Shown here one piece after another: positions 2,352 to 48,539 of a DNA stretch of 48,946 nt; position 1 is the stretch's first letter, and every line of letters starts with the position of its first letter. The notes under the pieces are model-generated. The model was not told where the DNA came from and searched no databases. It worked only from the letters and a program-made list of their open reading frames with translations. This DNA is from Gemmataceae bacterium (GTDB lineage Bacteria > Planctomycetota > Planctomycetia > Gemmatales > Gemmataceae). The position numbers and the translations under genes are program-made. The stretch lies in the NCBI GenBank assembly GCA_009697105.1, contig SIAQ01000025.1, positions 1 to 48,946 of the forward strand, in the 5' to 3' direction.

Positions 2352-2456
2352 TGACACACTCGACAAAAGTCGCTTTACGAGCCGGAAGCGTAAGCGACGG
2401 TTAGGAAAAAAAACCGTCGCTTACGCTTCCGGCTCGTACTTCTTTCGGACGCATCA
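2352..2456. repeat. Nested palindromic element, family F1 copy a
   Basis: Inner arms 2377-2402 and 2412-2437 form a perfect 26-bp stem (core GCCGGAAGCGTAAGCG) around a 9-nt A-rich loop. Outer arms 2352-2370 and 2438-2456 are weaker inverted copies (TGACACACTCGACAAAAGT; TGATGCGTCCGAAAGAAGT on the minus strand). The TGA that begins the right outer arm is the stop codon of the 2454-4604 gene. The same architecture recurs at 48339-48450. Confidence 0.9.
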
Positions 2457-4604
2457 CCAGCGAAGCGCCTGGAATAGGTTCGATGTATCGTCGGTCCACG
2501 CCTTCAGGCCAGGCCGGGGTCGCGCGGGTTCCCAGCCGACGAGTTTTCCCAGATGCCGTTCATCGCGCGCTAGCACAAGCCAATCGCTCGGCATGATACC
2601 TCGCCGCGTCTCCTCAGATGTCGGTTGATGTCGGCGGACCAGCGCAACGCAGGTCGGCAGAGCGTCGTCGGCGAGGGCGGCGAGCACCGGTTCGAGATCG
2701 ACGTAGCGATTCGAGAAGTGAAGCGCGATGACGCCGTTCGGCGTAAGCTTGCCGAGGTAGATCGCCAACGCCTCGCGCGTCAGTAGATGCAGCGGAATGG
2801 CATCGGAGCCGAACGCATCGATGACGAGCAGACCGAACTTTTGCGTCGATCGCTTCAACGACAGCCGGGCGTCGCCGATATCGATCTTGACGGTTCCCTT
2901 GGCGTCGTAGAGGAACGTGAAGAGGCGAGGGTTGAGGGCGATGTCGCGCACGGCGGGGTCGATCTCGAAGAAGGTCCACGCCTGGCCGGGCTTTGAGTAC
3001 GCCGCCAGCGAACCGGTGCCCAGTCCGACGACGCCGACGTGATCGAGCTGGGGATCATCGTTGAAGGCGTGGAAGACTTCGCCGATCGGCCCGCTGTTGG
3101 CGTAATAGGTCAACGGCAGATGCCGATAATCACGATCCTGATCCTGTTGGCCATGCACGGTGTTGCCATGCACGAGGCGAGTGAAGCCGTTGAGGCTAGT
3201 GACGCGATGGATGCCAAACCAGCTGCGTGTCTGATAGATCGTGGTGCCGTGAATGCCGTGATGAAACCAACTCGCCAGAAGGACGCTAGCGAGGCACAGC
3301 GCGAGACGGATGGGCCGCGCTTGCGAGATGTAGCAGTAGACGAACGGTCCGCCGAAGATGATCGCGATTTCGATCGGTCCACGCGGGAATGGCGGGCGAT
3401 CGAATTGCCGCACTAAGTAGACGAACGCCGCCGTGATCGCACCAACCGCTCCAGCTGCGAGAAAGTCAGCGCGATCGAGTTTCCAATCGCGCGTCAACCC
3501 GATGAGGCACGCCAGCACGATCATCAGGGGATATTCCGCCAGGCCGTTGAATAGCACCGGTGCGAGCAGCGCGTTGAACGCTCCGCCGAGCACGCCGCCG
3601 AACGCCAGGCACAAGTAAAACTCCGTAATTCTGTCGGCGCCGGGTTTCGTGCGTGCCAGTTCGCCGTGGCATACCATCGCCAGCCAAAAGAAGCCGACGA
3701 GCTGCACGCCCATCACGAGCGTCAACGGATCGTTCGCCTCGGACAGATAGACGAACAGCATTACGATCACGACCATCGGCTGCCAGCGGATCAGAACTGA
3801 GTGTGGCAGAAACGGCTTGCCTGCGAACACCAGAACAAACGTGCCAAGGTACAGCGCAATCGGTAGCAGCCAAAAGAGCGGCACAGCGGCGATGTCGGTC
3901 GTCAGGTGCGTCGTGACGCTGAGCATCAGACTAGACGGGACCATTGCCAGTGCGATCCAACGCAGGCGGGTCCAACGGTTCGGTGCGTTCGTCGTTGGCG
4001 TGGCGGATACGGCATCGGTCGCAGTGAACGCTCGCAAAGGCACGCAGAACGCCAGCAGCGCTGCCAGCACCAAAAACGCGAGCCGCCAGATTTCGCTCAT
4101 CGCGCTCAGGCTGAAGTTCGGTTCCAGCAAAAACGGAAACAGGCCAAGCGCCAGAAAGCTGCCGACGTTACTCGCGGCATACAGGACATACGGATCGCGT
4201 GGCGTCGCATGATGCTTCGCAAGGAACCAGCGCTGCACGAGCGGCGTGCCTGCCGAAAGCAGCACGAACGGCAAGCCGACGGCAAGCGTTAGCATGCCGA
4301 TCAACCAGACGGCGGGATGTAGGTCCGTCGGCACATCATCGGGGAAGCGGATCGGCAGTAGAAAATAGGCCGCGATCATCAGGCCGAGATGCAGGATCGC
4401 ATGCCGCCCGACGCCCAGCCAGCGAGGAAGGGCGTGTGCGATTGCGTAACCGACCAGCAGGCCAGCCTGGAAGAACACCATGCACGTGTTCCACACCGCC
4501 GGTGAACCACCGAGCAATGGCAACAGCATCTTGGCGCACATCGGCTGCACGAGAAACAGCAAGCACGAACTCAGAAATGTCGCGCAGAAATAAAGCCAAA
4601 CCAT
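2454..4604 (-). CDS. Polytopic membrane protein fused to a spermidine-synthase-like domain
   Basis: 716 residues. The first ~500 are mostly hydrophobic, with repeated predicted membrane helices, and include the segments LSAGTPLVQRWF and YVLYAASNVGS that I associate with 'fused MFS/spermidine synthase' proteins. The last ~195 residues form a Rossmann-type methyltransferase/aminopropyltransferase-like domain: GLGTGSLAAY (about 527-536), acidic loop FEID (about 546-549), GDARLS and DAFGSDAIPLHLLTREA (from about 596). The canonical spermidine synthase GGGDG is here GLGTGS, so polyamine synthesis should not be assumed. The stop codon lies in the outer arm of palindrome F1a. No partner gene suggests the substrate. 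Confidence 0.8.
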   Translation of the reverse strand: MVWLYFCATFLSSCLLFLVQPMCAKMLLPLLGGSPAVWNTCMVFFQAGLLVGYAIAHALPRWLGVGRHAILHLGLMIAAYFLLPIRFPDDVPTDLHPAVWLIGMLTLAVGLPFVLLSAGTPLVQRWFLAKHHATPRDPYVLYAASNVGSFLALGLFPFLLEPNFSLSAMSEIWRLAFLVLAALLAFCVPLRAFTATDAVSATPTTNAPNRWTRLRWIALAMVPSSLMLSVTTHLTTDIAAVPLFWLLPIALYLGTFVLVFAGKPFLPHSVLIRWQPMVVIVMLFVYLSEANDPLTLVMGVQLVGFFWLAMVCHGELARTKPGADRITEFYLCLAFGGVLGGAFNALLAPVLFNGLAEYPLMIVLACLIGLTRDWKLDRADFLAAGAVGAITAAFVYLVRQFDRPPFPRGPIEIAIIFGGPFVYCYISQARPIRLALCLASVLLASWFHHGIHGTTIYQTRSWFGIHRVTSLNGFTRLVHGNTVHGQQDQDRDYRHLPLTYYANSGPIGEVFHAFNDDPQLDHVGVVGLGTGSLAAYSKPGQAWTFFEIDPAVRDIALNPRLFTFLYDAKGTVKIDIGDARLSLKRSTQKFGLLVIDAFGSDAIPLHLLTREALAIYLGKLTPNGVIALHFSNRYVDLEPVLAALADDALPTCVALVRRHQPTSEETRRGIMPSDWLVLARDERHLGKLVGWEPARPRPGLKAWTDDTSNLFQALRW

Positions 4605-4963
4605 GGAGGAATATTATAGAGGATGTCCGTGGTCCGTAGTTCGTGGTCCGTAACAAAAAATGCGAATCACGAAAGAGCGAAAGTACGAAAGCTCGAAATC
4701 GAAGTACACACAAGACTTTGTTCGTGTTTTCGTTCTTTCGCTCTTTCGTGATTCGCATTTTGTTTTGGCTTGGCAAAGCCAGGGATGTATTTGGTCCTTT
4801 GGAGATCGTCCTTTGCGTTTTCCGTGTATAATAATAATGCTTGCCGCGAACCCGATTTGTGCGCGGCACGGTAACGGCGGTTCGTAGCCTTTCCGAGTTT
4901 CGTTCCGCAAGCTTGTTCCGCACCTTGTGTAATGTCGATCACCCACAGTGAACGGAGAAGGTC
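4605..4963. repeat. Gap of 359 bp with palindrome family F10 and F9-like half copy
   Basis: Arms 4657-4683 and 4735-4761 form a perfect 27-bp stem (core TGCGAATCACGAAAGAGCG) with a degenerate inner spacer of related purine-rich words. Just upstream, at 4622-4652, GTCCGTGGTCCGTAGTTCG resembles the left arm of the element at 16686-16806. The rest of the gap holds the candidate promoter for the small gene at 4964. No gene is seen. Confidence 0.85.
4827..4832 (+). promoter_or_regulatory. Candidate -10 box for the 4964 gene
   Basis: A perfect TATAAT sits in the AT-rich run TGTATAATAATAATG. No good -35 lies 16-18 bp upstream, and the leader to the start codon would be about 125 nt, so this is only a candidate. 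Confidence 0.3.
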
Positions 4964-5218
4964 GTGTCCAAGAAGACTGCGAAAAAGACTGTCGAAACCG
5001 TCGGCCTGGTGGGTCTGGGATTTGACAGCCAGGATGAGCACAAACGGATCACCAAGGGCGACGAGTTTCTTCTCGTCGGCGGGTCGGCGGAGACGCACGA
5101 ACGCATGCAGGATGTCGCCATCCATGTGACCGAAGCCCTGAAAACCAAGGGCAAACGCCTGCAAGACGCCGAGGTCAAGGAAGTCGTTGAATTGATACAG
5201 AAGGCGATGGATCGGTGA
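4964..5218 (+). CDS. Small conserved soluble protein of unknown function
   Basis: 84 residues, basic N-terminus (MSKKTAKKTVETVGLVGLGF), no signal peptide or membrane helix. It starts at GTG 4964, supported by a purine-rich ribosome site GGAGAAGG about 3-10 bases upstream. Visible features are DEHKRITKGDEFLLVGGSAETHERM and a C-terminal amphipathic helix (DAEVKEVVELIQKAM). I do not recognise a characterised family; the lysine-rich start followed by a compact alpha/beta domain would suit a small nucleic-acid- or protein-binding factor, but that is speculation. It is transcribed alone, between two palindrome-bearing gaps. Confidence 0.7.
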   Translation: MSKKTAKKTVETVGLVGLGFDSQDEHKRITKGDEFLLVGGSAETHERMQDVAIHVTEALKTKGKRLQDAEVKEVVELIQKAMDR

Positions 5219-5237
5219 TTTGCTGTCATTCCGCTAC

Positions 5238-5374
5238 ATTCTGGTTCCCAAACTCCGGTTTGGGAATCCTCGTTCTCGAAACTCCGTTTCGCAGAACCCG
5301 GCAATGTGGATTCTATGAGACGAAACAGAGTTTCCTGAATGCCCATTCCCAAACAGGAGTTTGGGAACGAGAAT
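5238..5374. repeat. Palindromic element family F13, with nested second stem
   Basis: Outer arms 5238-5267 and 5345-5374 pair imperfectly and each contains its own small palindrome (TTCCCAAACTCCGGTTTGGG). A second inner pair, 5278-5291 (GAAACTCCGTTTCG) with 5321-5334 (CGAAACAGAGTTTC), is nested inside. It lies between the 4964 gene and the sigma factor gene. Confidence 0.85.
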
Positions 5375-5440
5375 AGCGCGAAATCCGCGAAACTTATTGC
5401 ATCTTTGTAAGGTACATTTCTTTAGGCATGAGGCACGAAC

Positions 5441-5998
5441 GTGTGGGCTGAGGATGCCATTCTGGTCAAGCGCTGCCTGAAAGGGGACGAATTCGCCGTC
5501 CAGTCCCTCGTGGAACGCTTCCAGTCCGATGTGTTTGGCCTGTGCGTTCGGCTTTTGCACCATCGCCAGGATGCCGAGGATGTCACGCAGGAGGTTTTTC
5601 TGCGCATCTTCCGCAGCTTGCGGCGGTGGGATTCAGCCAGGCCGCTCAAGCCGTGGGTGATGGGTATCACTGTCAACCGTTGCCGAACCTGGATTTCGCA
5701 GCGTGTGAAGAAGCCGGAACTGGTCGATTATCTGCACGAAACCGTCGCGAATCGCCCCGAGGACGACAGCGTCGAATTGGTGTGTGAAATTCAGATGGCA
5801 TTAAAAGGGCTGCGCTGGGAATATCGGAGCGTATTCGTGATGTACCACGAGCGCAATCTGCCTTATGAGGATATTGCCGAGGCGCTGGAAAAGCCGGTCG
5901 GGACGATCAAGACCTGGCTGCATCGTGCGCGGTTGGAAGTGCTGGAGAAGCTGCGCGATCGCGGCATGATCTCAGAGGTTGAGCATGAATTGCCTTGA
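5441..5998 (+). CDS. ECF-type RNA polymerase sigma factor
   Basis: 185 residues from GTG 5441. The nearby upstream ATG at 5428 is out of frame. Region 2 is DEFAVQSLVERFQSDVFGL followed by RQDAEDVTQEVFLRIFRSL, the classic -10-recognition and core-binding segment. Region 4 is ALKGLRWEYRSVFVMYHERN, then YEDIAEALEKPVGTIKTWLH, the -35-binding HTH. Length is typical of an ECF factor with only regions 2 and 4. The stop codon overlaps the next gene by 14 bp; that gene encodes a zinc-finger anti-sigma protein, so the pair is a regulatory module. It probably directs transcription of its own operon and others in response to an envelope signal. Confidence 0.95.
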   Translation: MWAEDAILVKRCLKGDEFAVQSLVERFQSDVFGLCVRLLHHRQDAEDVTQEVFLRIFRSLRRWDSARPLKPWVMGITVNRCRTWISQRVKKPELVDYLHETVANRPEDDSVELVCEIQMALKGLRWEYRSVFVMYHERNLPYEDIAEALEKPVGTIKTWLHRARLEVLEKLRDRGMISEVEHELP

Positions 5999-6656
5999 GT
6001 GTCAAGAATTGTTGCAACAGAAACTCGATGGCGCCGCGACCGCGCCGTCCTCGGAGTTCGACGCGCATCTGGGCAGTTGCATGAAATGCCGAGAGTTGCA
6101 CGCCGGTGCGCAGCGATTGCTTGACGTGATTCAAAAACAAGTCCCGCCAAAGCTGCCCGTGGATTTTGCGAAGCGAACCGCAGCGATGGTTTTGGGCGAT
6201 CGCCGCGAACGGCGACGAAAAGTCCGGTCGCGTTTGTTTATCACGGCGGCGCTGGCGGCGTCCGTCATTGTCATGGTGCTGTTCGCCTACGCAATGCTGC
6301 CGCGCTCGCCCATGCCGAAAGGCAACGATGGCCTCGCCAAGCAAGACGCGATCAAAATCGAGGAAAAGAAAAAAGAAACGCCGCCGACAAAAAGTGTCGA
6401 GAAACAACCAGAAAGGCCCAGCGCCATCGCCGCCCTGCCCACGCGCTGGGTAGATGCGACACGCGATCACGCCAAAGTCGTATTGGCGGCGGCGAATTTC
6501 GATAGTGTCGCAAGTCTGCCAATCGATCCGACGGCAACCGAAGCCGCCCAGGAAATGTCCGACGGAGTCCGCACCGTCACGCTCAATACTCGCAAAGCCT
6601 TCGACTTCTTCGCCCGCGAATTTCCCATGCCCGACCTCGGCGAGCGTCGAGATTGA
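5985..6656 (+). CDS. Membrane-anchored zinc-finger anti-sigma factor
   Basis: 223 residues from ATG 5985, which overlaps the sigma gene. The N-terminus has the zf-HC2 pattern of anti-sigma factors: MNCLECQELLQQ, then HLGSCMKCRELH, giving the H-x3-C-x2-C zinc site. A single membrane helix follows (LFITAALAASVIVMVLFAYA, about residues 83-102), then a charged, periplasmic-type tail (IEEKKKETPPTKSVEKQ) without a recognised sensor domain. Role: holds the sigma factor at the membrane until a signal releases it. Overlapping translation suggests fixed stoichiometry. Confidence 0.9.
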   Translation: MNCLECQELLQQKLDGAATAPSSEFDAHLGSCMKCRELHAGAQRLLDVIQKQVPPKLPVDFAKRTAAMVLGDRRERRRKVRSRLFITAALAASVIVMVLFAYAMLPRSPMPKGNDGLAKQDAIKIEEKKKETPPTKSVEKQPERPSAIAALPTRWVDATRDHAKVVLAAANFDSVASLPIDPTATEAAQEMSDGVRTVTLNTRKAFDFFAREFPMPDLGERRD

Positions 6657-6672
6657 CACTGGGTTAGCCTGC

Positions 6673-6730
6673 GTCCGAGCCTGAGCGCCAGGAGGGATCC
6701 CCGGCCCTTCGCTGGCGCTCAGGCTCGGAC
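6673..6730. repeat. Palindrome family F2 copy a
   Basis: Perfect 18-bp arms at 6673-6690 and 6713-6730 (GTCCGAGCCTGAGCGCCA and its complement). No T-tract follows. It lies between the anti-sigma gene and the secreted-protein gene. Family F2 recurs at 22854 and 37054. Confidence 0.9.
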
Positions 6731-6765
6731 GGGCTGAGTCATCCTTGGCACAACCAGAGTACGCC

Positions 6766-8427
6766 ATGAAATTGTCGCTCCGATTCACGTTTAGTCTTCT
6801 GCTCACGATATTTGTTGCGCCCTACGTCGCCGCGCAGGACGCCGCCGACCTGATGAAGCTGTTGCCCAGCGATTTCGCCGTCACCGTCGTCGTGCACGAT
6901 CTCAAAAGCAATCACGCACGCTGGGAGAAATCGGAATGGTGGAAAGCCTTCCACGGCTCGATCGTCGGCAAGCGATTTACCGAATCCCCGGAGATGCAGC
7001 AGTTCCGTCGCTGGCAGGAGGATCTGAAAAAACATTTCCGGCTCGATTGGCCAACGCTCCGCGACGACATCCTGGGCGGCACCATCGTGCTGTCCTACTC
7101 CCCCGGCGATAAAACCAAGCCCGATTCCGAACGTGGCATCATTCTCGTTCGCGCCACGAAAATGGAATCGTTGTCGCGTCTCGTCGAACGCCTGAACGAA
7201 CTTCAAAAGCAAACCGGCGAGTTGAAATCACTCACGCCCCTGGAGCACGCCGGCGCGAAATATCATCGGCGATTGCAGGGCGGGAAGGCCCATTATTACG
7301 CCATATTCGACTCGTTGTTCGCGATCACGCCGAACGAGGATTCGCTGAAGGAAATGCTCGTTCGTCGGCGCGACGGAGATTTGAATTCACCGTGGATCAA
7401 GCGTTTTCGCCAAGCGGGCATCGAGGGGGCAATTGCGACGCTGTGCGTGAATCCGCGCAAAGTGGAACCGGACTTTGGGCCGGGCGTGAAAAAAACGGAT
7501 GAACTGCCGAGCTATTGGCGAGCGCTCGATGCGATTTTCGTGACGATGAATGTGAGCGATAACGCGGAGCTTCGTGTTTCGATTCAAGCGAAGACGGATG
7601 AGTTGCCGGCCTGGGCGCGTGGATCCTTCACGCACACGCTGGAGCGTTCGGAGTTGTGGGATCGCTTGCCCGAACGATCGCTGCTGACGTTCGCGGGGCA
7701 CACCGATTTCGTCGGAGCGGGCGATGCATTGCGTTTGCTATTGCCGGATAAGGATCGCGGAAAAATTAAGGAGAAGGTTCCTGGAATCGTATTCGACATG
7801 GTGAAGGAGATGCTGCCGAGCCTCGGCCCGGATTGGGGTGCATGCGTTCTGCCGGCGGGCAATGCCGATGAGTTGCCTCGGGGGCTTTTTGCCCTGCGTG
7901 TAAAGCCTGGATCGAAGAAGGCGCCTCTTGACGCGGATTTCATTCAGGCCATTCATCTGCTCGTGGCATTCAAGGTAGGAGAATACAACGCGGCCAATCC
8001 GAATTCCCCAATCGCCATCAGGTCGGCAATGCGAGGCAAGGTCGAAGTCAAGTATCTTGAGAACGCCAAGTTCCCGCGCGGATTTCAGCCGGCCTGGGCC
8101 TTGAAAGACGGCTACCTGCTGGCCGCTAACTCGCCCGAAACGATCGACGAATTCCGCAAGAGCGAGGGCAAAGCGATCGCCGGCAAGGACACGCCGATCC
8201 TGCGGCTTTCGACCGGCGAACTCGCCAAATTGCTCGATCAACGTCGCGGCCACGTCCTCGCCACGTTGGCGCGCCAACCCGACGGCGTGGAAGGAGACTC
8301 AAAACGGAACCTCGAAAACGTGATCTCGCTGTTCCAACTCTTCGATGCCTTCACACTTTCGCAGCACGGCTCCGCCGGGCAAACCAGCTGGATGCTCCGC
8401 CTGACGCCCGCGGCTGCGAAAAACTAA
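6766..8427 (+). CDS. Secreted protein of unknown function downstream of the sigma/anti-sigma pair
   Basis: 553 residues from ATG 6766; an upstream in-frame TTG is possible, but this start exposes the signal peptide (MKLSLRFTFSLLLTIFVAPY, cleavage near VAAQ-DA). The mature chain begins AADLMKLLPSDFAVTVVVHDL and contains DILGGTIVLSYSPG and repeated alpha/beta-like stretches (RGIILVRATKMESLSRLVERL; YYAIFDSLFAITPNEDSLKEM). It resembles planctomycetal exported proteins with a DUF3352-like layout, but I see no catalytic motif. It follows the sigma/anti-sigma pair on the same strand after 109 bp and is a plausible target of that sigma factor. Confidence 0.7.
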   Translation: MKLSLRFTFSLLLTIFVAPYVAAQDAADLMKLLPSDFAVTVVVHDLKSNHARWEKSEWWKAFHGSIVGKRFTESPEMQQFRRWQEDLKKHFRLDWPTLRDDILGGTIVLSYSPGDKTKPDSERGIILVRATKMESLSRLVERLNELQKQTGELKSLTPLEHAGAKYHRRLQGGKAHYYAIFDSLFAITPNEDSLKEMLVRRRDGDLNSPWIKRFRQAGIEGAIATLCVNPRKVEPDFGPGVKKTDELPSYWRALDAIFVTMNVSDNAELRVSIQAKTDELPAWARGSFTHTLERSELWDRLPERSLLTFAGHTDFVGAGDALRLLLPDKDRGKIKEKVPGIVFDMVKEMLPSLGPDWGACVLPAGNADELPRGLFALRVKPGSKKAPLDADFIQAIHLLVAFKVGEYNAANPNSPIAIRSAMRGKVEVKYLENAKFPRGFQPAWALKDGYLLAANSPETIDEFRKSEGKAIAGKDTPILRLSTGELAKLLDQRRGHVLATLARQPDGVEGDSKRNLENVISLFQLFDAFTLSQHGSAGQTSWMLRLTPAAAKN

Positions 8428-8436
8428 CCGGAATCA

Positions 8437-8612
8437 TCAACCACCGAGGCACAGAGAACACAGAGGAATGCAATCCGTATTGAATATCCCCTCAAAAAGC
8501 CCGTTCCCTGTTTAGCGCCCGCGTGATGCCTCGCACGGCGCGGGCGCCAAACGAAAAAAACGAATTCTGAGGTGCGCGTCTGTGTTGGTTTTCTCTGTGC
8601 CTCTGTGGTTCA
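8437..8612. repeat. Palindrome family F5 copy a, inside a 316-bp gap
   Basis: Left arm 8437-8468 and right arm 8579-8612 carry the family words ACCACAGAGGCACAGAG and CTCTGTGCCTCTGTGGTT with a few mismatches. The interior contains another hairpin at about 8516-8546 (GCCCGCGTGATGCC...GCGCGGGC). No gene is visible in 8428-8743. Confidence 0.88.
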
Positions 8613-8743
8613 AATTTTACTTTTCATTTCGGATTTTGCCAAAAAATGATGGCGTCGCGCGGGCGAATCATGGTAAGATGAACAACCGGCGGCGAACGGG
8701 TGCCGTTCGCAGATCGCGAATCAACTCTTTTGAGACGATTGCC

Positions 8744-10930
8744 ATGCAAAGTACGCAACTGGCTTGTCCGCATTGTGGTTCGACGCTGAACTTCGGCACG
8801 GAGATCGTGACCGGGAGTTCCGTTGAGTGCTTGATTTGTATGCAATCATTCACGGCGAACCGCGTGCCAAGACCGACGCCCGCGGTGCCAAGCATTGACG
8901 CCAACGATTCACCGACGCTGTCCGATACGATCACCGACGTGTTGCCGAAAGTTTCCGCGCCGGCGAAGGCGGCGCCCAAGTCGAGACCGGCGCCGGTCGG
9001 CATCATGGAAAAGCCGACACCAAGGCCGACGAAATCCGAACCAAAGAAAGTCGACGAATCCACGCCGCTAGCGTTGCGAAGACCGAAGCAGAACGCCGGC
9101 GCGGGGACGACGAGCATCGTCGCTCTCATCGGAGGTGCGGCATTGTTGCTGATGGTCCTGACGGCAGGAATCGGCCTGGCGGTGTGGAAAGCGAAATCAT
9201 CTACGAAGGGCGCTGGAGCAGACGATCCGCCCGCGATCGCAGCATTCGATAAGCCGAACAATGGGATTGCCAAGAACGATGTCAAGTCAATCGATGATGG
9301 AAAAAAAACGGGCGGGCCATCCAGTACAAACCCGACACCGAGCAGCGGCGGTGCGAACAAGCCGCCCATCAAGAACATTTCAGACGACGGCGACGAGAAG
9401 TCTCTGCTCCAACGGAAAAACCAAAAAAGTGCCGGCGCGGAGCCGGATTTTGACTTGCGCCTTGGAAAATTCGATGTCGCCAAGAACACTCCGGTCGGGC
9501 TGAATCAGCAACGCATCAACGAAGCCATCGACAAGGGCGTTGGTTACCTCAGGCAAACGCAGAAGCCCGACGGGACCTGGGCCGACGGTCACGGCGTCGG
9601 CCACGCGGCGATCGGCGGCTTGACGCTTCTCGAATGCGGCGTGCCCGCCAACGACTTTTGCGTGCAACGCTCAGCCTTTTACGTGCGAACCAATGTCTTG
9701 AAGCTTGCGTCCACCTATGAGCTTTCGCTGGCCATCCTGTTCCTTGACCGACTGGGCGACATTCGCGATCGCCCGACGATCCAGGGTATGGGCCTGCGTT
9801 TGCTTGCGGGCCAAAAGGACAGCGGCGGTTGGAATTACTCGTGCCCCCTGCTCGATACTCCCGAGATGTATCAACTGTGGGCGTTCTTACAGACGAACCG
9901 CCAGCCGGACTTGCTCAACCCGCTTCAGGGCCAAATTAACCTGCCGGCGGGAATCGTAACCGATCCGAAGTTGGTGAACCCGCTGACAAGCGATCCGGCC
10001 AAGCTCAACGACCCATTCACGGCCCTTAATGCGATGATGCTGACCAAGGGCATCGACGGCGGCAAGAACCCGAATCCCGGCGCCGGCAATCCCGGCGGCG
10101 GCACGAATCCACAGAATCCGCCGACGCCGATGCCTAAACCCGATCCCGTTCCCAAGAAAAAAGGCCCGCCCGCCAAACTGCCGTTCCAACCTGTAATTCA
10201 GCAAGCCTGGCTCAAACCGACCTTGCAAAATCTGCCCGTCGTGCTGAATCAAGGCAGGGGCAAGGGGCAGCAGAAAGTCGGGCGTGAAGACGGCGATAAT
10301 TCCAACACGCAATTCGCCATTCTCGCGCTCTGGGCCGCCCGACGACATGGCGTGCCCACGGAACAAGGCATTCTCGCCGCCTATCAACGCTTCGTCACCT
10401 CGCAGAACAACGACGGCGGCTGGGGCTACCACGTAAACGGCGGCACCGCGCCCAGCATGACCTGTGTCGGTTTGCTTGGCAATGGCATGGGCCATGGCAC
10501 CGCGCCGGACATCGTGCGCCTGGATACCACCAACCTCAAAAACTCCATCGTCAAGCCCGCCCTTGACGATGTACGAATCCAGAACGGCTTGAAGGCGCTC
10601 TCCAAGTTCGTCGGCCAACCATCGTTTGACGACAAGAAGACGAACTTCCCGATGGAGAACCTCTACTTCCTCTGGTCTGTCGAACGCGTGGCAATGCTGT
10701 ACGATCTCAAAGCCATCAACGGCAAAGACTGGTACGGCTGGGGCGCCCAAATCCTCGTACACAACCAACAACCGACCGGGGTTTGGGGGGTGGGCGGCCA
10801 CTACCACGGCGCGAATCCGCCCCTCAATACTTGCTTCGCGCTCCTCTTCCTCAAACGCTCCAACCTCGTGCAAGACCTCACCGACAACCTGCGCCTCTAC
10901 AGCGGCATCCGCAACCCTGACGCCCCGTGA
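8744..10930 (+). CDS. Zinc-ribbon / single-TM / prenyltransferase-like alpha-toroid protein
   Basis: 728 residues from ATG 8744; an earlier ATG at 8678 is also in frame, but the zinc ribbon begins only here. Domains: a four-Cys ribbon at the N-terminus (LACPHCGSTLNF, then VECLICMQSF); a Pro/Lys-rich linker; one membrane helix (IVALIGGAALLLMVLTAGIG); a second low-complexity linker; then two halves of an alpha/alpha toroid related to squalene cyclases and prenyltransferases, marked by YLRQTQKPDGTWAD, LRLLAGQKDSGGWNY and FVTSQNNDGGWGYH (QxxDGxW/QxxGGW repeats). The two halves are split by an insert rich in Gly, Asn and Pro (about 440-500). No DXDD cyclase motif is apparent, so enzymatic terpene chemistry is unlikely. 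A related shorter protein is encoded at 29297. Confidence 0.82.
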   Translation: MQSTQLACPHCGSTLNFGTEIVTGSSVECLICMQSFTANRVPRPTPAVPSIDANDSPTLSDTITDVLPKVSAPAKAAPKSRPAPVGIMEKPTPRPTKSEPKKVDESTPLALRRPKQNAGAGTTSIVALIGGAALLLMVLTAGIGLAVWKAKSSTKGAGADDPPAIAAFDKPNNGIAKNDVKSIDDGKKTGGPSSTNPTPSSGGANKPPIKNISDDGDEKSLLQRKNQKSAGAEPDFDLRLGKFDVAKNTPVGLNQQRINEAIDKGVGYLRQTQKPDGTWADGHGVGHAAIGGLTLLECGVPANDFCVQRSAFYVRTNVLKLASTYELSLAILFLDRLGDIRDRPTIQGMGLRLLAGQKDSGGWNYSCPLLDTPEMYQLWAFLQTNRQPDLLNPLQGQINLPAGIVTDPKLVNPLTSDPAKLNDPFTALNAMMLTKGIDGGKNPNPGAGNPGGGTNPQNPPTPMPKPDPVPKKKGPPAKLPFQPVIQQAWLKPTLQNLPVVLNQGRGKGQQKVGREDGDNSNTQFAILALWAARRHGVPTEQGILAAYQRFVTSQNNDGGWGYHVNGGTAPSMTCVGLLGNGMGHGTAPDIVRLDTTNLKNSIVKPALDDVRIQNGLKALSKFVGQPSFDDKKTNFPMENLYFLWSVERVAMLYDLKAINGKDWYGWGAQILVHNQQPTGVWGVGGHYHGANPPLNTCFALLFLKRSNLVQDLTDNLRLYSGIRNPDAP

Positions 10931-10948
10931 GGAAAATCCGGAAAATAC

Positions 10949-11016
10949 AAGCCCAAGGGTGAGGTACTCCGAACCCTTGGGATCCCAGACGTTCGGAGTA
11001 CCTTACGTCTGGGCTT
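10949..11016. repeat. Palindrome family F15
   Basis: Arms 10949-10974 and 10991-11016. The inner 12 bp are perfect (GGTACTCCGAAC / GTTCGGAGTACC) and the outer part is degenerate (AAGCCCAAGGGTGA versus AAGCCCAGACGTAA). It fills the gap before the epimerase-like gene and has no U-tract. Confidence 0.85.
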
Positions 11017-11040
11017 ACGTCCTTGTTTCGGATTTACAAC

Positions 11041-11886
11041 ATGAAGCCCTGCATCTCTCAAGCGACTACCATGTCTCGGACTTTCGCCGAGGATATCGCC
11101 AATTGCGCCGACGCCGGTTGCAACGCCGTTGAAGTTTGGCTGACCAAACTCGAACAGCACCTCGAAATCGAATCGGTCGCGGCTACCCAACGACTCCTCG
11201 CCGACCGCAAAATTCATCTGGCGGCAGCGGCGTATCAAGGCGGGTTGCTCCTGTCTCAGGGCGAGGCACGCAAGGCGCATTTCGATCACTTTCGCCGACG
11301 GCTGGATTTGTGTCAGCAGTTCGGCATCAAGACGATGCTCGTCGTCGCTGATTTCGTCGATAAGGTGGACGCGACAAGTTTGGATCGGGCTATCGTCTCA
11401 CTAGCCCAGGCGGGGCAGTGGGCTGCCGGCTTCGATGTCACGCTCGCTCTTGAATTCCGCGCGAAGAACACGTTCTGCGCCAGTCTCGATACCGCCGTCG
11501 CCCTGGTCTCGCAGTGTGGCGAGGTGAACGTCGGCGTGAATCTCGACATCTTCCACTACTACACCGGACCGAGCAAGTTCGACGACCTCGGCCTGCTCAC
11601 GCCCAACCGCCTGGCTCATGTGCAGATCGCCGACATCGCCGGCGTGACCCGCGAACTGGCGACCGACGCCGACCGCATCCTACCAGGCGATGGCGATATC
11701 CCGTTGACGCCGATCCTGGATGTGCTGCGGCGCATTGGTTACATGGGATATATTTGCGTGGAATTAATGAATCCCATACTCTGGCAGGCGAACTCCAAGC
11801 AGGTCGCGGAAATCGCCTGGACATCTTTACGCAAATTGCTGGGTGAAGCGGTTGCGCCAGATGCGCGGCATGTCGAACGTTCCTGA
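11041..11886 (+). CDS. Sugar phosphate isomerase/epimerase-like TIM-barrel protein
   Basis: 281 residues from ATG 11041. It shows the AP-endonuclease-2 fold typical of xylose-isomerase-like enzymes: CADAGCNAVEVWLTKLE near the N-terminus, CQQFGIKTMLVVAD, LALEFRAKN (metal-ligand Glu), VNVGVNLDIFHYYTGPS (Asp/His ligands), HVQIADIAG (His), GDGDIPLTPILDVLRRIGY and YICVELMN (terminal Glu). No leader peptide, so cytoplasmic. Likely isomerises or epimerises a ketose or a keto-inositol-like sugar; the substrate is not deducible. A Tat-exported relative lies at 38042. Confidence 0.88.
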   Translation: MKPCISQATTMSRTFAEDIANCADAGCNAVEVWLTKLEQHLEIESVAATQRLLADRKIHLAAAAYQGGLLLSQGEARKAHFDHFRRRLDLCQQFGIKTMLVVADFVDKVDATSLDRAIVSLAQAGQWAAGFDVTLALEFRAKNTFCASLDTAVALVSQCGEVNVGVNLDIFHYYTGPSKFDDLGLLTPNRLAHVQIADIAGVTRELATDADRILPGDGDIPLTPILDVLRRIGYMGYICVELMNPILWQANSKQVAEIAWTSLRKLLGEAVAPDARHVERS

Positions 11887-12118
11887 TGTGTCGATTATTC
11901 GAGTTGAACCGGATTCATTCCATTCGATTTTCACTTGGCGACTCAAGTTTTTGGTGAAATCGGCGATTAAAGAATTTATGATTATTTAAGGAGTTAATTA
12001 AACGACGGCGCGATTTTGTCGAATGCGTCAACCGGCTTCCAATTGCGAGCTCGCAAAATGCGACGGCTCGCGCAGCACCATCGCTGAATTCAACCAATCG
12101 AATCGGAGGAGAGGCGAA

Positions 12119-12979
12119 ATGCGATTACTTTACGGTGTTATTTTCTGCGTGGCGATTGTTGGGCTTACGAACGCCACGGCGTTCGCGCAAAACAAGCGTG
12201 TGGAGGGCAAATCGCTGGAGTTACAGCGCTCGCCGCGCGAAGGCCAACAAATCGTAGTCACCTTTCCGACGCAATCGTTCAAGCCTCTGGACGGCCATCG
12301 CGTCGTATTCGTCGTCAACGGCGTTGCCAATGGGACGGCGGCGACGGACACGTTGCTCGCTTTGAACGGCGAATACGGCTTGGGATTGAAACTCCGCACC
12401 GTGAACTGGTGCCGACACGATTCGATTCGCTTGGATCTAGTCGATCACGAGGCGCAGCTGAACGCCGCTGCCCGCATCGTCACTGAGGTGACGATGATTC
12501 GGCGGGATGCGCCGAATGCGAAGATCTACTTCGTTGCTCACAGTGCGGGCACGCTCGCCGTGCTTGCCGCCGCGGAGATGCTGCCGCCGAATAGCGTCGA
12601 TCGCATCATCCTTATCGCGAGCACCGTTTCATGCTCGTATGATCTTACCACGGCACTACGGGCCTCGCGGCACGGTATCGATAATTTCTACAGCTTCGAT
12701 GACCGTGTGGTCAATTGGGCGGTCGAGAGCGTCGGCACATCCGACGGTCTGCGTGGTCAGGCTGCGGGCCGCGTCGGCTTCCGTCTGCCGCACGCGAGCA
12801 AGCACGATGTCGCGGCTCTTCGCCAGCATGCTTGGGCCATGGAATTGGAAGGCCTGGGCGGGCACTTTGCCTGGACGCGATCGGGGAACATGAAGCGGTG
12901 CATCGTGCCGTTGTTGTTCCATAATGAAAATCCCCCGGCCGTGATCACCGAGCCGATCAAAGGCCCGGCGAAAAAATAA
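12119..12979 (+). CDS. Secreted alpha/beta-hydrolase-like protein
   Basis: 286 residues from ATG 12119, preceded by a strong ribosome site (GGAGGAGAGG). Signal peptide MRLLYGVIFCVAIVGLTNAT, cleavage near AFAQ-NK. The core HRVVFVVNGVANGTAATDTL and IYFVAHSAGTLAVLAAAEM matches an alpha/beta hydrolase, with the nucleophile elbow AHSAG in place of the common GHSMG. DRIILIASTVS follows, with SFDDRVVNW and GGHFAW as candidate acid and His regions. The catalytic Ser looks present; the acid is not certain. Substrate unknown; extracytoplasmic esterase or lipase is the simplest guess. Confidence 0.8.
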   Translation: MRLLYGVIFCVAIVGLTNATAFAQNKRVEGKSLELQRSPREGQQIVVTFPTQSFKPLDGHRVVFVVNGVANGTAATDTLLALNGEYGLGLKLRTVNWCRHDSIRLDLVDHEAQLNAAARIVTEVTMIRRDAPNAKIYFVAHSAGTLAVLAAAEMLPPNSVDRIILIASTVSCSYDLTTALRASRHGIDNFYSFDDRVVNWAVESVGTSDGLRGQAAGRVGFRLPHASKHDVAALRQHAWAMELEGLGGHFAWTRSGNMKRCIVPLLFHNENPPAVITEPIKGPAKK

Positions 12980-13017
12980 GTCGCGGATCAGACGCGACAG
13001 CACTTGTCAAGAAACAA

Positions 13018-13100
13018 ACCACGGAGTGCACGAACATTACAGACAGGTGAAATCTCCTAAACAGGATTTCCCGTCCACGTAATTCGTGCTATCCGTGGTT
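13018..13100. repeat. Palindrome family F7 copy a
   Basis: Left arm 13018-13040 (AACCACGGAGTGCACGAAC) and right arm 13081-13100 (AATTCGTGCTATCCGTGGTT). The preceding word GACAGCACTTG also precedes the F7 copy near 35501, so the element extends beyond the stem. Confidence 0.8.
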
Positions 13101-13139
13101 AAGTGTTTCTATAAAAATGCCGTCCGCCACCCCCGGGTC

Positions 13140-13333
13140 ACGTCAAAACAATGTTGACGCCTCCGACACAAGTCCGCGTTTACCGTAGTTATCACGTTTC
13201 ACGTTATATGTTTGCACTGAATACACGAACAAGAACGCAATTTCCAAGGCTTGTCCTACACTATCACAGCCTCGGAGCGTGATGGCTACTCTGGTCGTCG
13301 TCGGCTATCGTCGATTACGTCAAAACAATGTTG
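13140..13333. repeat. Insert of 160 bp bracketed by a perfect 17-bp direct repeat
   Basis: ACGTCAAAACAATGTTG occurs at 13140-13156 and again at 13317-13333. Between them lie TGACGCCTCCGACACAAGT (13155-13173, the F1 outer-arm word) and a degenerate F8 palindrome (TACCGTAGTTATCACG from 13181; CGGAGCGTGATGGCTAC near 13274-13290). This has the form of an insertion with a target-site duplication, or of a tandem duplication that has since diverged. Confidence 0.75.
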
Positions 13334-13359
13334 CGGTGGCACTCCTTATCGCGTATAAA
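13331..13359 (+). promoter_or_regulatory. Sigma-70-type promoter for the DUF1501 gene
   Basis: TTGCGG (13331-13336), a 17-bp spacer, then TATAAA (13354-13359). Transcription would start near 13366, giving a leader of about 37 nt to ATG 13403. The -35 box begins inside the right copy of the 17-bp direct repeat. Confidence 0.55.
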
Positions 13360-13402
13360 ATAAGTGGATCGATCTCCGTTCATAGCTTATGGGGGCCATG
13401 CC

Positions 13403-14788
13403 ATGTTGCGAATCGATGACGGGTCGGCGCGTCTTTGCGACAGCGTTACGCGGCGAGAATGGATGCGGATCGGCGGACTCGGCCTCGCGGGGTTGACGCT
13501 GCCGACGCTACTTTCTTCTCGCTCGCTTGCCAATACCGGATCGGGTGGACGCGCGAAATCGTGCATCGTCATGTGCTTTCTCGGCGGCCCGCCTCAGCAA
13601 GAAACCTGGGATCCCAAACCCAACTCTCCCGCCGAAGCTCGCGGCGACCTGAACCCGATCGCGACAAACGTGCCCGGCATCGTCGTCGGCGAGTTGATGC
13701 CTCGCACTGCCCAGCATCTCGACAAGATCAGCGTGCTTCGCGCGATGGTGACGAACGACAACGCCCATTCGTCGAGCGGATACTACATGACAACCGGTAG
13801 GCCGCACGCGCCGGTCGGCGCCGAGAACGCCAAGCCCGGCAAGCCCAACGATTGGCCCTGCCTCGGCGCGCTGGTGAAGCGCGTGATACCAGCGACTCAT
13901 GGCCTGCCTTCCGTGATTACGCTGCCCGAACAGTCGGCGAACGACGGCAACCTGACCTGGCCTGGCCAAGACGCCGGCTTCCTCGGCCGTACCGCCGACC
14001 CCTGGCTGCTCAGCTGCGATCCGTCGCTCGCCGGCTTTCAAATCGATGGCATGGCCCTGCCCGCCGATGTCAACAGCATGCGTTTCGATGGCCGTCGCCA
14101 GCTGCTTGGCCAAGTCAACGATCGGCTCGACAACCTTGGCCGCGCTGGTAATGCCGGCATCTTCAACGCCCAACAGCAGCAGGCTATCGATTTGATCTCA
14201 GGCTCACGCGCACGCAGGGCGTTCCATCTTCACGAAGAAACGTCAGCCGTGCGCGATCGTTATGGCCGACGCAAGTTCGGCCAAAGCCTGCTGCTCGCGC
14301 GGCGCCTGGTCGAATCCGGCGTCTCGCTCGTGCGCGTCAACTGGTCGCGCGTGCCTGGTGCATTGAACAACGGCCATTGGGATACGCATTCGCAGAACTC
14401 GAACGCGCTGAAGCAGCTGATGCCGATCATGGATCAGGCTTATTCCTCGCTGCTTGAAGATTTGTCGCAGCGCGGCTTGCTCGATGAAACGCTCGTCGTT
14501 TGGATGGCGGAGTTCGGCAGAACGCCAAGGCTGAACGGTTCCGGCGGACGCGATCACTGGGGTCGGGTGTTCTCGGTGGCGTTGGCGGGCGGCGGAATTC
14601 GCGGCGGCGTCGTGCACGGCGTGTCGGACAGCATCGCCGCCTATCCGCGCGATGGTCGTGTGCTACCCGAAGATCTGCTGGCCACCATCTTCCACTGCCT
14701 CGGCATCCAACATGACAGCGAGTACAGCGATGCCCAAGGCCGACCGCTACCGCTGACCCGCGGCGATATCATTCGGCAGATCGTGTAA
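13403..14788 (+). CDS. DUF1501 protein with Tat-like leader
   Basis: 461 residues from ATG 13403. The N-terminus carries TRREWMRIGGLGLAGLTLP, a Tat-like signal, so the protein is probably exported folded. Mature hallmarks of DUF1501 (alkaline-phosphatase/sulfatase-like fold): KSCIVMCFLGGPPQQETWDP, ELMPRTAQHLDKISVLRAM, VTNDNAHSSSGYYMTTG, NNGHWDTHSQN, VVWMAEFGRTPRLNGSGGRD, HWGRVFSVALAGGG and the C-terminal LTRGDIIRQIV. DUF1501 genes in this phylum usually sit beside a DUF1549/DUF1553 partner; none is visible here. Function is unknown, with proposals centred on phosphate- or sulfate-ester chemistry. Confidence 0.93.
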   Translation: MLRIDDGSARLCDSVTRREWMRIGGLGLAGLTLPTLLSSRSLANTGSGGRAKSCIVMCFLGGPPQQETWDPKPNSPAEARGDLNPIATNVPGIVVGELMPRTAQHLDKISVLRAMVTNDNAHSSSGYYMTTGRPHAPVGAENAKPGKPNDWPCLGALVKRVIPATHGLPSVITLPEQSANDGNLTWPGQDAGFLGRTADPWLLSCDPSLAGFQIDGMALPADVNSMRFDGRRQLLGQVNDRLDNLGRAGNAGIFNAQQQQAIDLISGSRARRAFHLHEETSAVRDRYGRRKFGQSLLLARRLVESGVSLVRVNWSRVPGALNNGHWDTHSQNSNALKQLMPIMDQAYSSLLEDLSQRGLLDETLVVWMAEFGRTPRLNGSGGRDHWGRVFSVALAGGGIRGGVVHGVSDSIAAYPRDGRVLPEDLLATIFHCLGIQHDSEYSDAQGRPLPLTRGDIIRQIV

Positions 14789-16679: not shown

Positions 16680-16685
16680 TGATTT

Positions 16686-36976: not shown

Positions 36977-37053
36977 CGAACAAGCTCCCAACTAAAATTC
37001 GGGTGAAACTCGAAAATCGATTCAAATACCGCCCAAGGCTGCATTTGTCTGAT

Positions 37054-37110
37054 CAGAGCCTGAGCGCCAGCGAAGGGCAAACGCGACCCTTCGCTGGCGC
37101 TCAGGCTCTG
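37054..37110. repeat. Palindrome family F2 copy c
   Basis: Perfect 24-bp arms 37054-37077 and 37087-37110 (core CAGAGCCTGAGCGCCAG). Shares flanking word GTATAGATTG with F2b near 22937, so the family extends beyond the stem. Confidence 0.92.
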
Positions 37111-37206
37111 AAAATACGCAATGTCACCCGCGTGCGGTATAGATTGTTGTATTGTGTTTGGCCGCGACGCGCCAGCGGAGCGCGGAGCAGACCATGTAAT
37201 CATCGA

Positions 37207-37863: not shown

Positions 37864-37904
37864 GGCATATCTCCGAAACGATGTTCACGATATTGTATCC
37901 CGCA

Positions 37905-38024
37905 CGCGGCTGGAATTGTCGCATCGGTGGCACAGGCATTCCTGTCTGTGCAAACCCCAAACACAGACAGGAATGTCTGTGCCACCGTTCAATAAATCGG
38001 ACAAGTCTAGCCGTTCAAGGTGTA
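37905..38024. repeat. Palindromic element family F6 copy a, with shared flanks
   Basis: Arms 37926-37950 and 37962-37986 (GGTGGCACAGGCATTCCTG...) pair with one mismatch. Left flank GCACGCGGCTGGAATTGTCG and right flank TAGCCGTTCAAGGTGTA (38008-38024) recur, inverted, around the copy at 40369, so the element is about 120 bp, not just the stem. Confidence 0.88.
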
Positions 38025-39050: not shown

Positions 39051-39097
39051 ACCGCTTGCGGTTTAGCGTTCGCATGGTGCCGCGCGAGCGCTAAACG
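39051..39097. repeat. Palindrome family F4, degenerate copy d
   Basis: ACCGCTTGCGGTTTAGCGTT (39051-39070) pairs partly with GCGAGCGCTAAACG (39084-39097). It lies between divergent genes. Confidence 0.7.
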
Positions 39098-40189: not shown

Positions 40190-40733
40190 ACGTGGATCGA
40201 CGGGGATGTAAATCGCGTCAGAGTCACGCACGAAGTAAGTGGTTTGAACTCGCCGCCAGTCGCTACACCTTGAACGGCTAATGATCCGACCAGCTTGATT
40301 TGACAGGTGGGGCCAGGCATTCCTGCCTGGCCAGTTCGCACCACTAGGCCTGCCCAATTTATTGCACGGTGGCAAAGACATTCCTGTCTATGCTTGGGGT
40401 TTACACAGACAGGAATGTCTGTGCCACCGATGCGACAATTCAAACCGCGTGCAGTATTCGGACCACTTACTTCGTGCGTGGCTCTGACCATCATTACCCA
40501 TTCGCGGAAATTTACGTCATCAACGGTATCCAAAATATTGGCATCTCGAAAATCTCTGGCGAGGCATGAATCAAGTATCGAAAAAGCCGCAAGATTTTTC
40601 GTGCGGAACCTTGCAATTTATTTGTGAGATGATTATGATGACAACGTCCCGCTGATTGATGCCACGGTGACTGGGCGACGCCGAGGTGTTCGACAGCGGG
40701 GCATTTTTTTTTGCGCCTACACTTTTCTATTCC
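40190..40733. other. Gap of 544 bp filled by a nested palindromic element
   Basis: No gene is visible. 40217-40488 is the nested element described separately. From 40489 to 40733 I see only AT-rich sequence, including an eight- to nine-T run (40713-40722) close to the pdxH start. Confidence 0.75.
40217..40488. repeat. Large nested palindromic element containing F6 copy b
   Basis: Outer arms 40217-40243 and 40462-40488 pair over 27 bp with one mismatch (core CACGCACGAAGTAAGTGGT). Inside lie a GGCCAGGCATTCCTGCCTGG hairpin (40314-40333) and F6 copy b (40369-40393 with 40404-40428). Flanks of F6b (AATTGTCGCATCGGTGG inverted; TACACCTTGAACGGCTA at 40264-40280) match those of F6a at 37905. Confidence 0.9.
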
Positions 40734-42759: not shown

Positions 42760-42893
42760 AACCACAGAGGCACAGAGAACACAGAGAAAATGCGACGAAT
42801 CAGGCGAAACTCGCTTCATTAGACAGTTCATGCGTTGTAACAGATGAACCTAATCCCTCGTATTTTCTCTGTGTTCTCTGTGCCTCTGTGGTT
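42760..42893. repeat. Palindrome family F5 copy b
   Basis: Perfect 32-bp arms 42760-42791 and 42862-42893 (AACCACAGAGGCACAGAG...). It lies directly upstream of the DapA-like gene, whose other side carries copy c. Confidence 0.95.
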
Positions 42894-43853: not shown

Positions 43854-43966
43854 AACCACAGAGGCACAGAGGACACAGAGGAAATGCAAAGAAAGGGTGG
43901 ATTTTCGTAGTTCGATTTCCTTCACAGGATTTGTATTTCCTCTGTGTCCTCTGTGCCTCTGTGGTT
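43854..43966. repeat. Palindrome family F5 copy c
   Basis: Perfect 32-bp arms 43854-43885 and 43935-43966 (AACCACAGAGGCACAGAGG...). Differs from copy b by a few bases. One reading frame across it stays open and would add a TTEAQRTQR-type peptide to the next protein, but that start is not credible. Confidence 0.95.
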
Positions 43967-45216: not shown

Positions 45217-45450
45217 CCGGATGCGCACGTTTTGAAGTTGCGCGTTTATTGAGTCGAGGAGATAAGCAACATCGCTGCATTTGCTTGAAATACAATGAGG
45301 AATTAAGAATGAGGAATTGAATTCAATTCATTCGCGTCCATCGATTCGCTTGCATTCATTCTTAATTCCTCATTCCTCGTTCTTAATTCCTCATTGCATT
45401 TGGGCGCTAGACGAAAATCGCAACTTCAAAACTTGTGCGTTCGGCTAACG
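45211..45450. repeat. Nested palindrome family F14 overlapping the MFS stop codon
   Basis: Outer arms 45211-45242 (CGTTAGCCGGATGCGCACG...) and 45419-45450 pair over 32 bp with about five mismatches. An inner pair, 45293-45322 (CAATGAGGAATTAAGAATG...) with 45358-45396, is nested inside and itself made of GAGGAATTAAGAATG repeats. The left outer arm contains the TAG stop of the MFS gene. The gap 45217-45528 holds no gene. Confidence 0.92.
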
Positions 45451-46962: not shown

Positions 46963-47024
46963 GTTTAGCCGTTCGCCTTTGGCGAGCGCAAACCGTCGCG
47001 CTCGCCAAAGGCGAGCGGCAAAAC
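46963..47024. repeat. Palindrome family F3 copy c
   Basis: 27-bp arms 46963-46989 and 46998-47024 pair with few mismatches (core GTTTAGCCGTTCGCCTTTGG). It lies between convergent genes; no U-tract. Confidence 0.9.
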
Positions 47025-47917: not shown

Positions 47918-48181
47918 ATGGCCAAGAACACGACGCCCGCGCCGAAGACCGGCAATCAACCCGTCGCCAAGGCTGCCGCAACCGCCAATGCTCCGGCCTG
48001 CGGGAACTCAACGGTGACGCCCCATGTCGCGCCGGAAAAGATCGCACAGCGGGCATTCGAGAAATGGCTCAGCCGCGGATGCACGCACGGCTGCGACAAG
48101 CAAGATTGGCATGAAGCCGAATTGGAGTTGAAATCCGAATTGGCGAAAAAGGGCAACGCCACGACACCGTCGAGACGCTAA
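47918..48181 (+). CDS. DUF2934-family small protein
   Basis: 87 residues from ATG 47918; strong ribosome site AAGGAGG. A flexible Ala/Pro/Lys N-terminus (MAKNTTPAPKTGNQPVAKAA) leads to the DUF2934 motif: IAQRAFEKWLSRGCTHGCDK then QDWHEAELELKSEL, matching the family pattern A(F/Y)EKW-RG-HG-D--DW-EAE. Function unknown; often stress-related in planctomycetes and proteobacteria by gene context. Encoded alone. Confidence 0.88.
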   Translation: MAKNTTPAPKTGNQPVAKAAATANAPACGNSTVTPHVAPEKIAQRAFEKWLSRGCTHGCDKQDWHEAELELKSELAKKGNATTPSRR

Positions 48182-48338
48182 GTAAATGGGAGCAATAAGC
48201 CTCCCTGTCGCCCTACTTGCCTCTGCCAAGCGGCACGATGTGATCGCCCTAACACCAGCAAGATTTCGTGTTGCTGGCGTCGCACGCCAATTCCTATTTG
48301 CACGCAAAAGCACGAATTTTTTCATCTCATGTTATACT

Positions 48339-48450
48339 TGACGCCACCGACAAAAGTGTATTTCCGAGGCTGAAGCGTAAGCGAGGCGGCCAGAATGCTT
48401 CGCTTACGCTTCAGCCTCGGAAGGAAAATCGACTTTTGTCGGTCGCGTCA
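48339..48450. repeat. Nested palindromic element, family F1 copy c
   Basis: Outer arms 48339-48357 (TGACGCCACCGACAAAAGT) and 48432-48450 (its complement with one mismatch) enclose inner arms 48364-48384 and 48399-48420 (core GAGGCTGAAGCGTAAGCG). Total 112 bp, beginning TGACGC and ending GCGTCA. This is the clearest F1 copy. Confidence 0.95.
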
Positions 48451-48478
48451 TACTTCACACGGTTGGATTTGTCACATT

Positions 48479-48539
48479 GGTGGCACAGACATTCTTGTCT
48501 GTGTAAACCGCAAACACAGACAAGAATGTCTGTGCCACC
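48479..48539. repeat. Palindrome family F6 copy c
   Basis: Perfect 25-bp arms 48479-48503 and 48515-48539 (GGTGGCACAGACATTCTTG...). It lies 28 bp from F1c. Its left flank (GGTTGGATTTGTCACATTGG) resembles the left flank of F6a. Confidence 0.92.

Follow-up and report, generated by a model that had tools for sequence, protein, structure and literature searches.

Passages of two studies (PMC3116915 and PMC6006769) describe repetitive extragenic palindromic (REP) sequences that occur as inverted hairpin pairs (REP doublets forming hairpins, REPINs), with one REP-associated tyrosine transposase (RAYT) per REP type, and RAYT genes flanked by their own REPs (REPtrons). The known foot of these REPs is GT[AG]G; other feet are described for some subclasses, and a species is reported to have as many as four genes from different class-2 subclasses (PMC6006769, in part). 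Y1 transposase genes between terminal inverted repeats (TIRs) that form dispersed families have also been described, as TIRtrons (TIR-associated tyrosine transposases), in passages of PMC3733652. Here we analyze a 48,946-bp window (contig C84 of a 5.44-Mb draft genome of a Gemmataceae bacterium, in 187 contigs and 92% complete) whose intergenic gaps hold long palindromes of many families. We think it likely that small mobile elements, most of them non-autonomous, occupy these gaps in overlapping sets of three classes: REPINs (class A), paired arms of GxxExxY elements that lack the gene (class B), and miniature inverted-repeat transposable elements (MITEs; class C). Class A is a variant of the known REPIN/RAYT systems, and class B may be a new kind of element.

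The palindromes are real, and mobile elements are their best explanation. With a net score of at least 12 and a loop of at most 12, we found 6 stems in the window, compared with 0, 0, 1, 0, and 0 in five order-2 Markov simulations. For genome statistics we pooled the window with 20 other stretches sampled from its genome (443,180 bp in total), calling genes with a simple codon-model script rather than a standard annotation. This sample contained 151 stems of the same minimum score with loops of up to 20, versus 1 in a single simulation, and 144 of the 151 were mostly intergenic in a sample that is 16.4% intergenic DNA, which bears out the statement of an earlier, sequence-only reading of the window (the first-pass annotation) that these are genuine intergenic palindromes. 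Allowing loops of up to 130 gave 200 stems (191 intergenic), from which we extrapolate, assuming a typical sample, to about 2,450 genome-wide. Clustering was strict, and several of the 49 stems outside the 19 multi-copy clusters resemble diverged family members. Families (numbered F0–F15 here, differently from the first-pass annotation) recurred within the window as that annotation had said, with F1 at 20236 and 46963, F4 at 6672, 22854, and 37053, F5 at 8439, 42760, and 43854, and F9 at 37925, 40367, and 48478, and further copies were found across the genome rather than in the window alone. Stems with a net score of at least 16 occurred at 27.9 per 100 kb across the 20 stretches, and two other genera of the same family had none in 60 kb each.

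Most gaps are occupied, also as first proposed: 166 of the 279 gaps of at least 50 bp in the sample held at least one palindrome (117/192 tandem, 25/36 convergent, and 24/51 divergent). In tandem gaps, 103 of 126 palindromes lay closer to the upstream stop codon, at a median distance of 50 nucleotides. Elements would accumulate just past stop codons because insertion is least harmful there. Intrinsic terminators were rejected as an explanation, in keeping with the earlier claim that U-tracts are mostly lacking: only 10 of the 200 stems had at least 6 T among the 8 bases outside an end, and terminator-like sites in positions 1–20000 of the window numbered 29, against 22.6 ± 4.9 in shuffles. The window had no Rfam match at gathering score and no tRNA. 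One sequence at 29224–29296, a hairpin followed by TCTTTTTCTTTCC and 0.99 conserved in a close relative, does resemble an ordinary terminator.

The families do not share a single architecture, as first stated, but fall into two. Most arms fold on themselves as REP hairpins, so that each such palindrome is an inverted pair of REPs (F0, F1, the F2 clan, F3, F10, and others), whereas arms of the CACAGAG, CGAAAG, and CACGGAT types do not self-fold and form a second architecture, which we call word palindromes. For F3, F10, and the F2 clan, compensatory changes in the stems were more numerous than in any of 500 shuffles.

A search of the genome with PF01797 (Y1 transposase) found five places. Two of them, together with a gene found with a protein query, are RAYTs with a copy of one palindrome family immediately on each side, and the third of these carries F3, the family at 10949–11016 of the window. 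Three other Y1 genes (L009, L010, and L011) were rejected as RAYTs of REPINs, having no matching palindromes on both sides. With a profile of 16 RAYT proteins we then searched seven genomes of the genus, and each of them had RAYTs. Of 49 distinct places, 43 scored at least 50 bits and were taken as strong loci (42 in the genus and one in a Phycisphaera record); at 26 of them one REP stood on both sides, 14 had a one-sided stem (some of these at contig ends), 3 had no stem, and none had two different REPs. Sixteen of the 43 were seeds of the profile, picked after their flanks had been seen; the 27 others comprised 16 with the same REP on both sides, 9 one-sided, and 2 with none. As a control, 84 of 275 ordinary genes of the sample had stems on both sides, and only 3 had the same family on both. 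F0, F1, F3, F7, F10, F13, F14, and F15 all flank a RAYT in this way, and for the window families F0, F1, and F3 (more weakly F7) such RAYTs occur in the same genome or a sister species. The RAYT transposase that had been suggested as a thing to look for is therefore present between copies of these palindromes. Among Y1 loci of wider relatives (L047–L075), one in another genus (L053, G020:C366) also sits between two copies of one palindrome.

The first-pass annotation had further raised the possibility of one enzyme shared by all families, which our data do not support. Among 34 RAYTs, REP similarity was 0.26 for the 261 pairs less than 25% identical in protein sequence, 0.30, 0.41, and 0.48 in the middle identity classes, and 0.88 for the 6 pairs above 70%. 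This rise of REP similarity with RAYT identity indicates one RAYT per family, and the word palindromes go with a different gene altogether, as described below. Class A elements comprise two inverted REP hairpins, and each family would be mobilized by its own RAYT, a Y1 HUH (IS200-like) transposase that would recognize, in single-stranded DNA, the REP hairpin together with its foot.

Class A differs from described REPIN/RAYT systems in its diversity, with 27 coexisting REP types at the 40 RAYT loci with arms (20 types if only two-sided loci are counted) and up to nine strong RAYT loci in one genome, a number that is not equivalent to the count of up to four subclass genes cited above. It differs also in its motif: AGCC lay within an arm at 33 of the 40 loci (15.9 in shuffles), whereas the known foot GT[AG]G was found at 9 (18.2 in shuffles). 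The TnpAY1 class 3 of Planctomycetes shares the host group and has atypical structures adjoining the gene; its foot, CnGA, occurred at 21 of our 40 loci, below the 30.9 of shuffles (PMC6006769, in part). TIRtrons share a Y1 transposase between inverted repeats, but passages of PMC3733652 describe those repeats as mostly unrelated to REPs, whereas ours are mostly hairpin REPs.

RAYTs appear to be gained and lost across the genus. The RAYTs of F0, F1, and F7 in a sister species, G004, are interrupted by stop codons and appear as two profile pieces each (L187 on C145, L188 on C126, and L230 on C163), and the profile search of the 92%-complete genome of the window found none for these families, even though no cluster of the 443-kb sample is larger than those of F0 and F1. 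Families would thus persist where their RAYT is interrupted or was not found because RAYTs come and go.

Word palindromes are built from repeated T-poor words (F5: AACCACAGAGGCACAGAGGACACAGAG), and no RAYT was found with them, the loci tested for F5 included. F5 matched 34 of 198 genomes of the class in a patchy distribution (the reversed pattern had no match in the table), and in one genome F5 words flanked a GxxExxY gene on both sides. A PF13366 search of 20 genomes found GxxExxY genes in 17. Of 52 places counted we examined 49, seeking arms up to 330 bases upstream and 300 downstream, and found inverted arms at 46 (28 of 30 in a first set and 18 of 20 in a second, with one armless locus repeated). 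Controls under the same test gave 19 of 275 genes in the palindrome-rich sample, 2 of 72 in two other genera, and 1 of 13 among neighboring genes. Read in gene orientation, the arms had on average 8.5% T and 38% A, and 43 of the 46 loci had less T than A. Of at least 70 spacings of a C-R-C-VVV motif, 55 were 8, 9, or 10 bases. The words varied between loci (CACAGAG, CACGGAT, CACGAAA, CGCAAAG, CGCCAAG, CACGGGG, and others), with the same word on both arms of a locus. All 13 proteins scanned from between word arms belonged to the GxxExxY family (TIGR04256, PF13366), and D68, E78, and K80 were invariant in 13 of 13. A predicted fold was not used (mean predicted local distance difference test score 41), and no relative by sequence was found in the PDB at E ≤ 1.

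GxxExxY genes also occurred in eight plasmid records outside the planctomycetes. Arms were strong in Gemmatirosa (32/32 bases) and Bacteroides finegoldii (21/22), short in Bernardetia (12) and Treponema (11), and, read by eye, extended into the end of the gene in a Sphingomonas plasmid; a viral contig had a 34-base pair of arms at 85%. In the Fusobacteria plasmid CP102406.1 (L317) the copies of CAGATTTAATCCGTGTACCTAT that flank the gene are direct rather than inverted repeats. In a Sphingomonas parapaucimobilis plasmid it lies between fabD and fabG, where a congener has about 30 bases, with differing flanks. Back in the window, six palindromes aligned to GxxExxY arms (8439, 13017, 35504, 42760, 43854, and, most loosely, 4657), and the only GxxExxY gene found in the genome is truncated and lies near a palindrome like that at 4657.

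Word palindromes would accordingly be paired arms of GxxExxY elements minus the gene, each arm commonly with two to four T-poor iterons (C-R-C-VVV) 8–10 bp apart. We see about an even chance that GxxExxY genes form the core of an undescribed, multi-phylum class of mobile elements, in which a gene of about 120–130 codons for a predicted PD-(D/E)XK nuclease lies between inverted T-poor iteron arms, settles in operons just past stop codons, leaves gene-less palindromes behind, and diversifies its own recognition sequence as RAYTs do, with the two systems overwriting each other in the same gaps. The diversification is suggested by the arm words changing on both sides together. The protein may bind or cut the arms, or the hairpin that they form, and so copy the element. 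GNNA loops give stable DNA mini-hairpins, and GxxExxY proteins elsewhere often start with translated repeat words. Our searches of the open-licence literature (including family names and nucleases with inverted repeats) found nothing on flanking arms, iterons, or solo palindromes for this family and no described function for its proteins, and for the arm repeat words the sole bacterial match was a primer for the polymerase chain reaction in a passage of PMC3090145.

A competing view, possible but on the whole doubtful, makes the gene cargo or target: a gene or operon position would attract word repeats that the protein does not move. Word palindromes do occur without the gene, with only a truncated one in the genome of the window, and in two species the gene stands in apparently the same gap with different words. 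That view accounts poorly for inverted arms on the two sides of the gene at 46 of 49 loci, with many word types and in several phyla, and for the sharing of one word by both arms of a locus.

Class C elements are MITEs: F2 or F6 cores in a shell of about 100 bp with terminal inverted repeats and 6-bp target duplications. Comparison of the window with G004 showed two clean insertions. ATGAAT flanks an F2 element of G004 on either side, ATACTT likewise flanks an F6 element of the window, and both elements have GACGCCACCGACAAAAGT-type ends. Of 11 copies with a recognizable shell read in the genome of the window, six had an exact 6-bp duplication, one had 5 of 6 bases, and four had none or were unclear. 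F2 cores also occur bare, or in a second shell that ends in CTAG, 133 bp long (CTAGTGCTCTGTC ... GACAGAGCACTAG), at L018:2101-2233 and L019:3665-3797. Unlike ordinary MITEs, these have a REP palindrome as their core; some transposase that leaves 6-bp duplications would move them. A 1262-bp pair in L128, considered as a long autonomous element with F2/F6 ends, proved to be two MITEs. With several RAYT-linked families, the GxxExxY class, and MITEs, the palindromes are neither ordinary terminators nor a single REP family, as had been argued at the outset.

G004 is a syntenic close relative, itself a draft of about 290 contigs; long aligned pieces are 90–97% identical to the window (one short piece 83%). 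Comparison was possible for 28 of 32 gaps, of which 13 aligned at 0.90 or more, 6 at 0.64–0.87, and 9 at 0.52 or less; these nine we call rebuilt. Orthologous gaps do differ between species and copies do recur across the genome, so that the outcomes named by the first-pass annotation as refutations were not seen. Six of the rebuilt gaps have different palindrome families in the two genomes, two have a palindrome in the window only, and one is unclear; replacement begins near the stop codon and extends almost to the next start. At two GxxExxY sites of G004, the genome of the window has another palindrome instead, with differing flanks, and G004 lacks the F3 RAYT cassette of that genome. By protein reading, a likely bacterial microcompartment operon has, in neighboring gaps, a GxxExxY element in G004 (C134, L307:1-2400) and the F3 RAYT cassette in the genome of the window (C38, L035).

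In our reading, the rebuilt gaps arose by repeated insertions with which older spacer was lost, selection on the genes acting as a filter. It seems improbable that homologous recombination swaps spacers between strains, with the palindromes as old passengers that no longer move. Such exchange would suit the replacement of whole spacers and the interruption of some RAYTs, but the flanking genes have their usual identity on both sides, the exact target duplications establish true insertion for class C, and intact RAYTs with matching REPs persist. Also unlikely, in our view, is that gaps need a hairpin (as a transcript end, for protection of mRNA 3′ ends, or as a supercoiling site) and that any palindrome is kept or exchanged under selection. 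The six family replacements look like hairpin-for-hairpin exchange, and palindromes sit just after stop codons in tandem gaps and are more frequent in convergent than in divergent ones; tolerance alone, however, predicts the same position, and a need for hairpins fits badly with the scarcity of U-tracts, the lack of a terminator excess, the 113 of 279 gaps with no palindrome, the absence of strong stems from the 60 kb examined in each of two other genera, and the two gaps that lost, or never had, a palindrome. An assembly artefact of metagenome-type drafts is very hard to credit: both genomes are fragmented drafts, but the differing gaps have syntenic sequence to either side, and the insertions have exact duplications.

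Several results weigh against our reading of the gaps as mobile elements. No exact empty site was found for class A or B, the whole spacer differing at rebuilt gaps, and we for this reason infer the movement of both classes by RAYTs and GxxExxY proteins. No RAYT for F8, F9, F11, or the element at 5238 was found in the RAYT loci searched, F4 has only a related REP at RAYTs, and compensatory changes showed no excess for F1, F8, F9, and F13. In class B, 17 of the 20 genomes had been selected for carrying F5, which biases the sample of words; inverted arms were lacking at 3 of 49 loci and in 3 of 8 plasmid records; and the words at 16698 and 45288 matched none of the GxxExxY arms tested. A search of the fetched loci yielded no transposase and no autonomous partner for the F2/F6 shell. 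The elements of the window are listed in Table 1. The end of the window (48797–48946) is a sequence that recurs at many contig ends of G004; it is probably part of an insertion sequence at which the assembly broke.

Table 1. Palindromic elements of the window, in window coordinates (G, genome; C, contig; L, fetched locus).
Element	Coordinates	Remarks
F2 palindrome	2352–2451 (core stem 2376–2438, GAGCCGGAAGCGTAAGCGACGG)	inside degenerate class C (MITE) shell; present in G004
Word palindrome CGAAAG	4657–4761	like the palindrome next to the truncated GxxExxY gene of this genome; G004 has other families
REPIN-like 137-bp element	5238–5374	each end a TTCCCAAAC hairpin; dispersed over about 30 places of the genome; G004 has F1; enzyme not found
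F4 palindrome	6672–6731	RAYTs of G003 and G005 have related but non-identical REPs
F5 word palindrome	8439–8610	further stem inside
F3 REPIN	10949–11016	RAYT in same genome at C38:9571-10110 (L035, L197)
Word palindrome AACCACGGAGTGCACGAA	13017–13100	conserved in G004
F2-clan palindrome	14807–14850	convergent gene end
Word palindrome CCGTAG	16698–16808	no enzyme assigned; G004 has F0
F11 REPIN-like palindrome	17708–17770	RAYT not found; F0-type in G004
F1 REPIN	20236–20315	RAYT in G004:C126 (interrupted); one-sided at G001:C19
F4 palindrome	22854–22913	conserved in G004
F8 palindrome	30313–30403	GTAG adjoins stem; absent in G004; RAYT not found
Palindrome GACATCACGCTCCGCGTGATG, no family assigned	31496–31603	
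F0 REPIN	33024–33083	RAYT in G004:C145 (interrupted)
Word palindrome, CACGGAT type	35504–35590	surrounds stem 35530–35567
F4 palindrome	37053–37111	absent in G004
F9 palindrome	37903–38024 (repeated 122-bp element; stem 37925–37987)	further copies 40367–40429, 48478–48540; enzyme not found
Short F7-like palindrome	39061–39096	similarity 0.81 over 13-base arm; F7 RAYTs in G002, G003, G004, G006
F5 word palindrome	42760–42893	conserved in G004
F5 word palindrome	43854–43966	F0 in G004
Word palindrome GAGGAATTAAGAATG	45288–45401	no enzyme assigned; F1 in G004
F1 REPIN	46963–47024	conserved in G004
F6 MITE	48331–48449 (stem 48362–48422)	GACGCCACCGACAAAAGT ends; ATACTT target duplication; clean empty site in G004
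F9 palindrome	48478–48540	

Our analysis turns unexplained palindromes into pairs of enzyme and element that can be tested. One genus with some twenty or more RAYT–REP types is a resource for learning how HUH enzymes read hairpins, and the arms around their genes suggest a role for GxxExxY proteins. Spacers were rebuilt between genomes whose genes are about 90–97% identical, an indication that turnover can be far faster in intergenic than in coding DNA; this bears on gene regulation and on how bacterial genomes are read.

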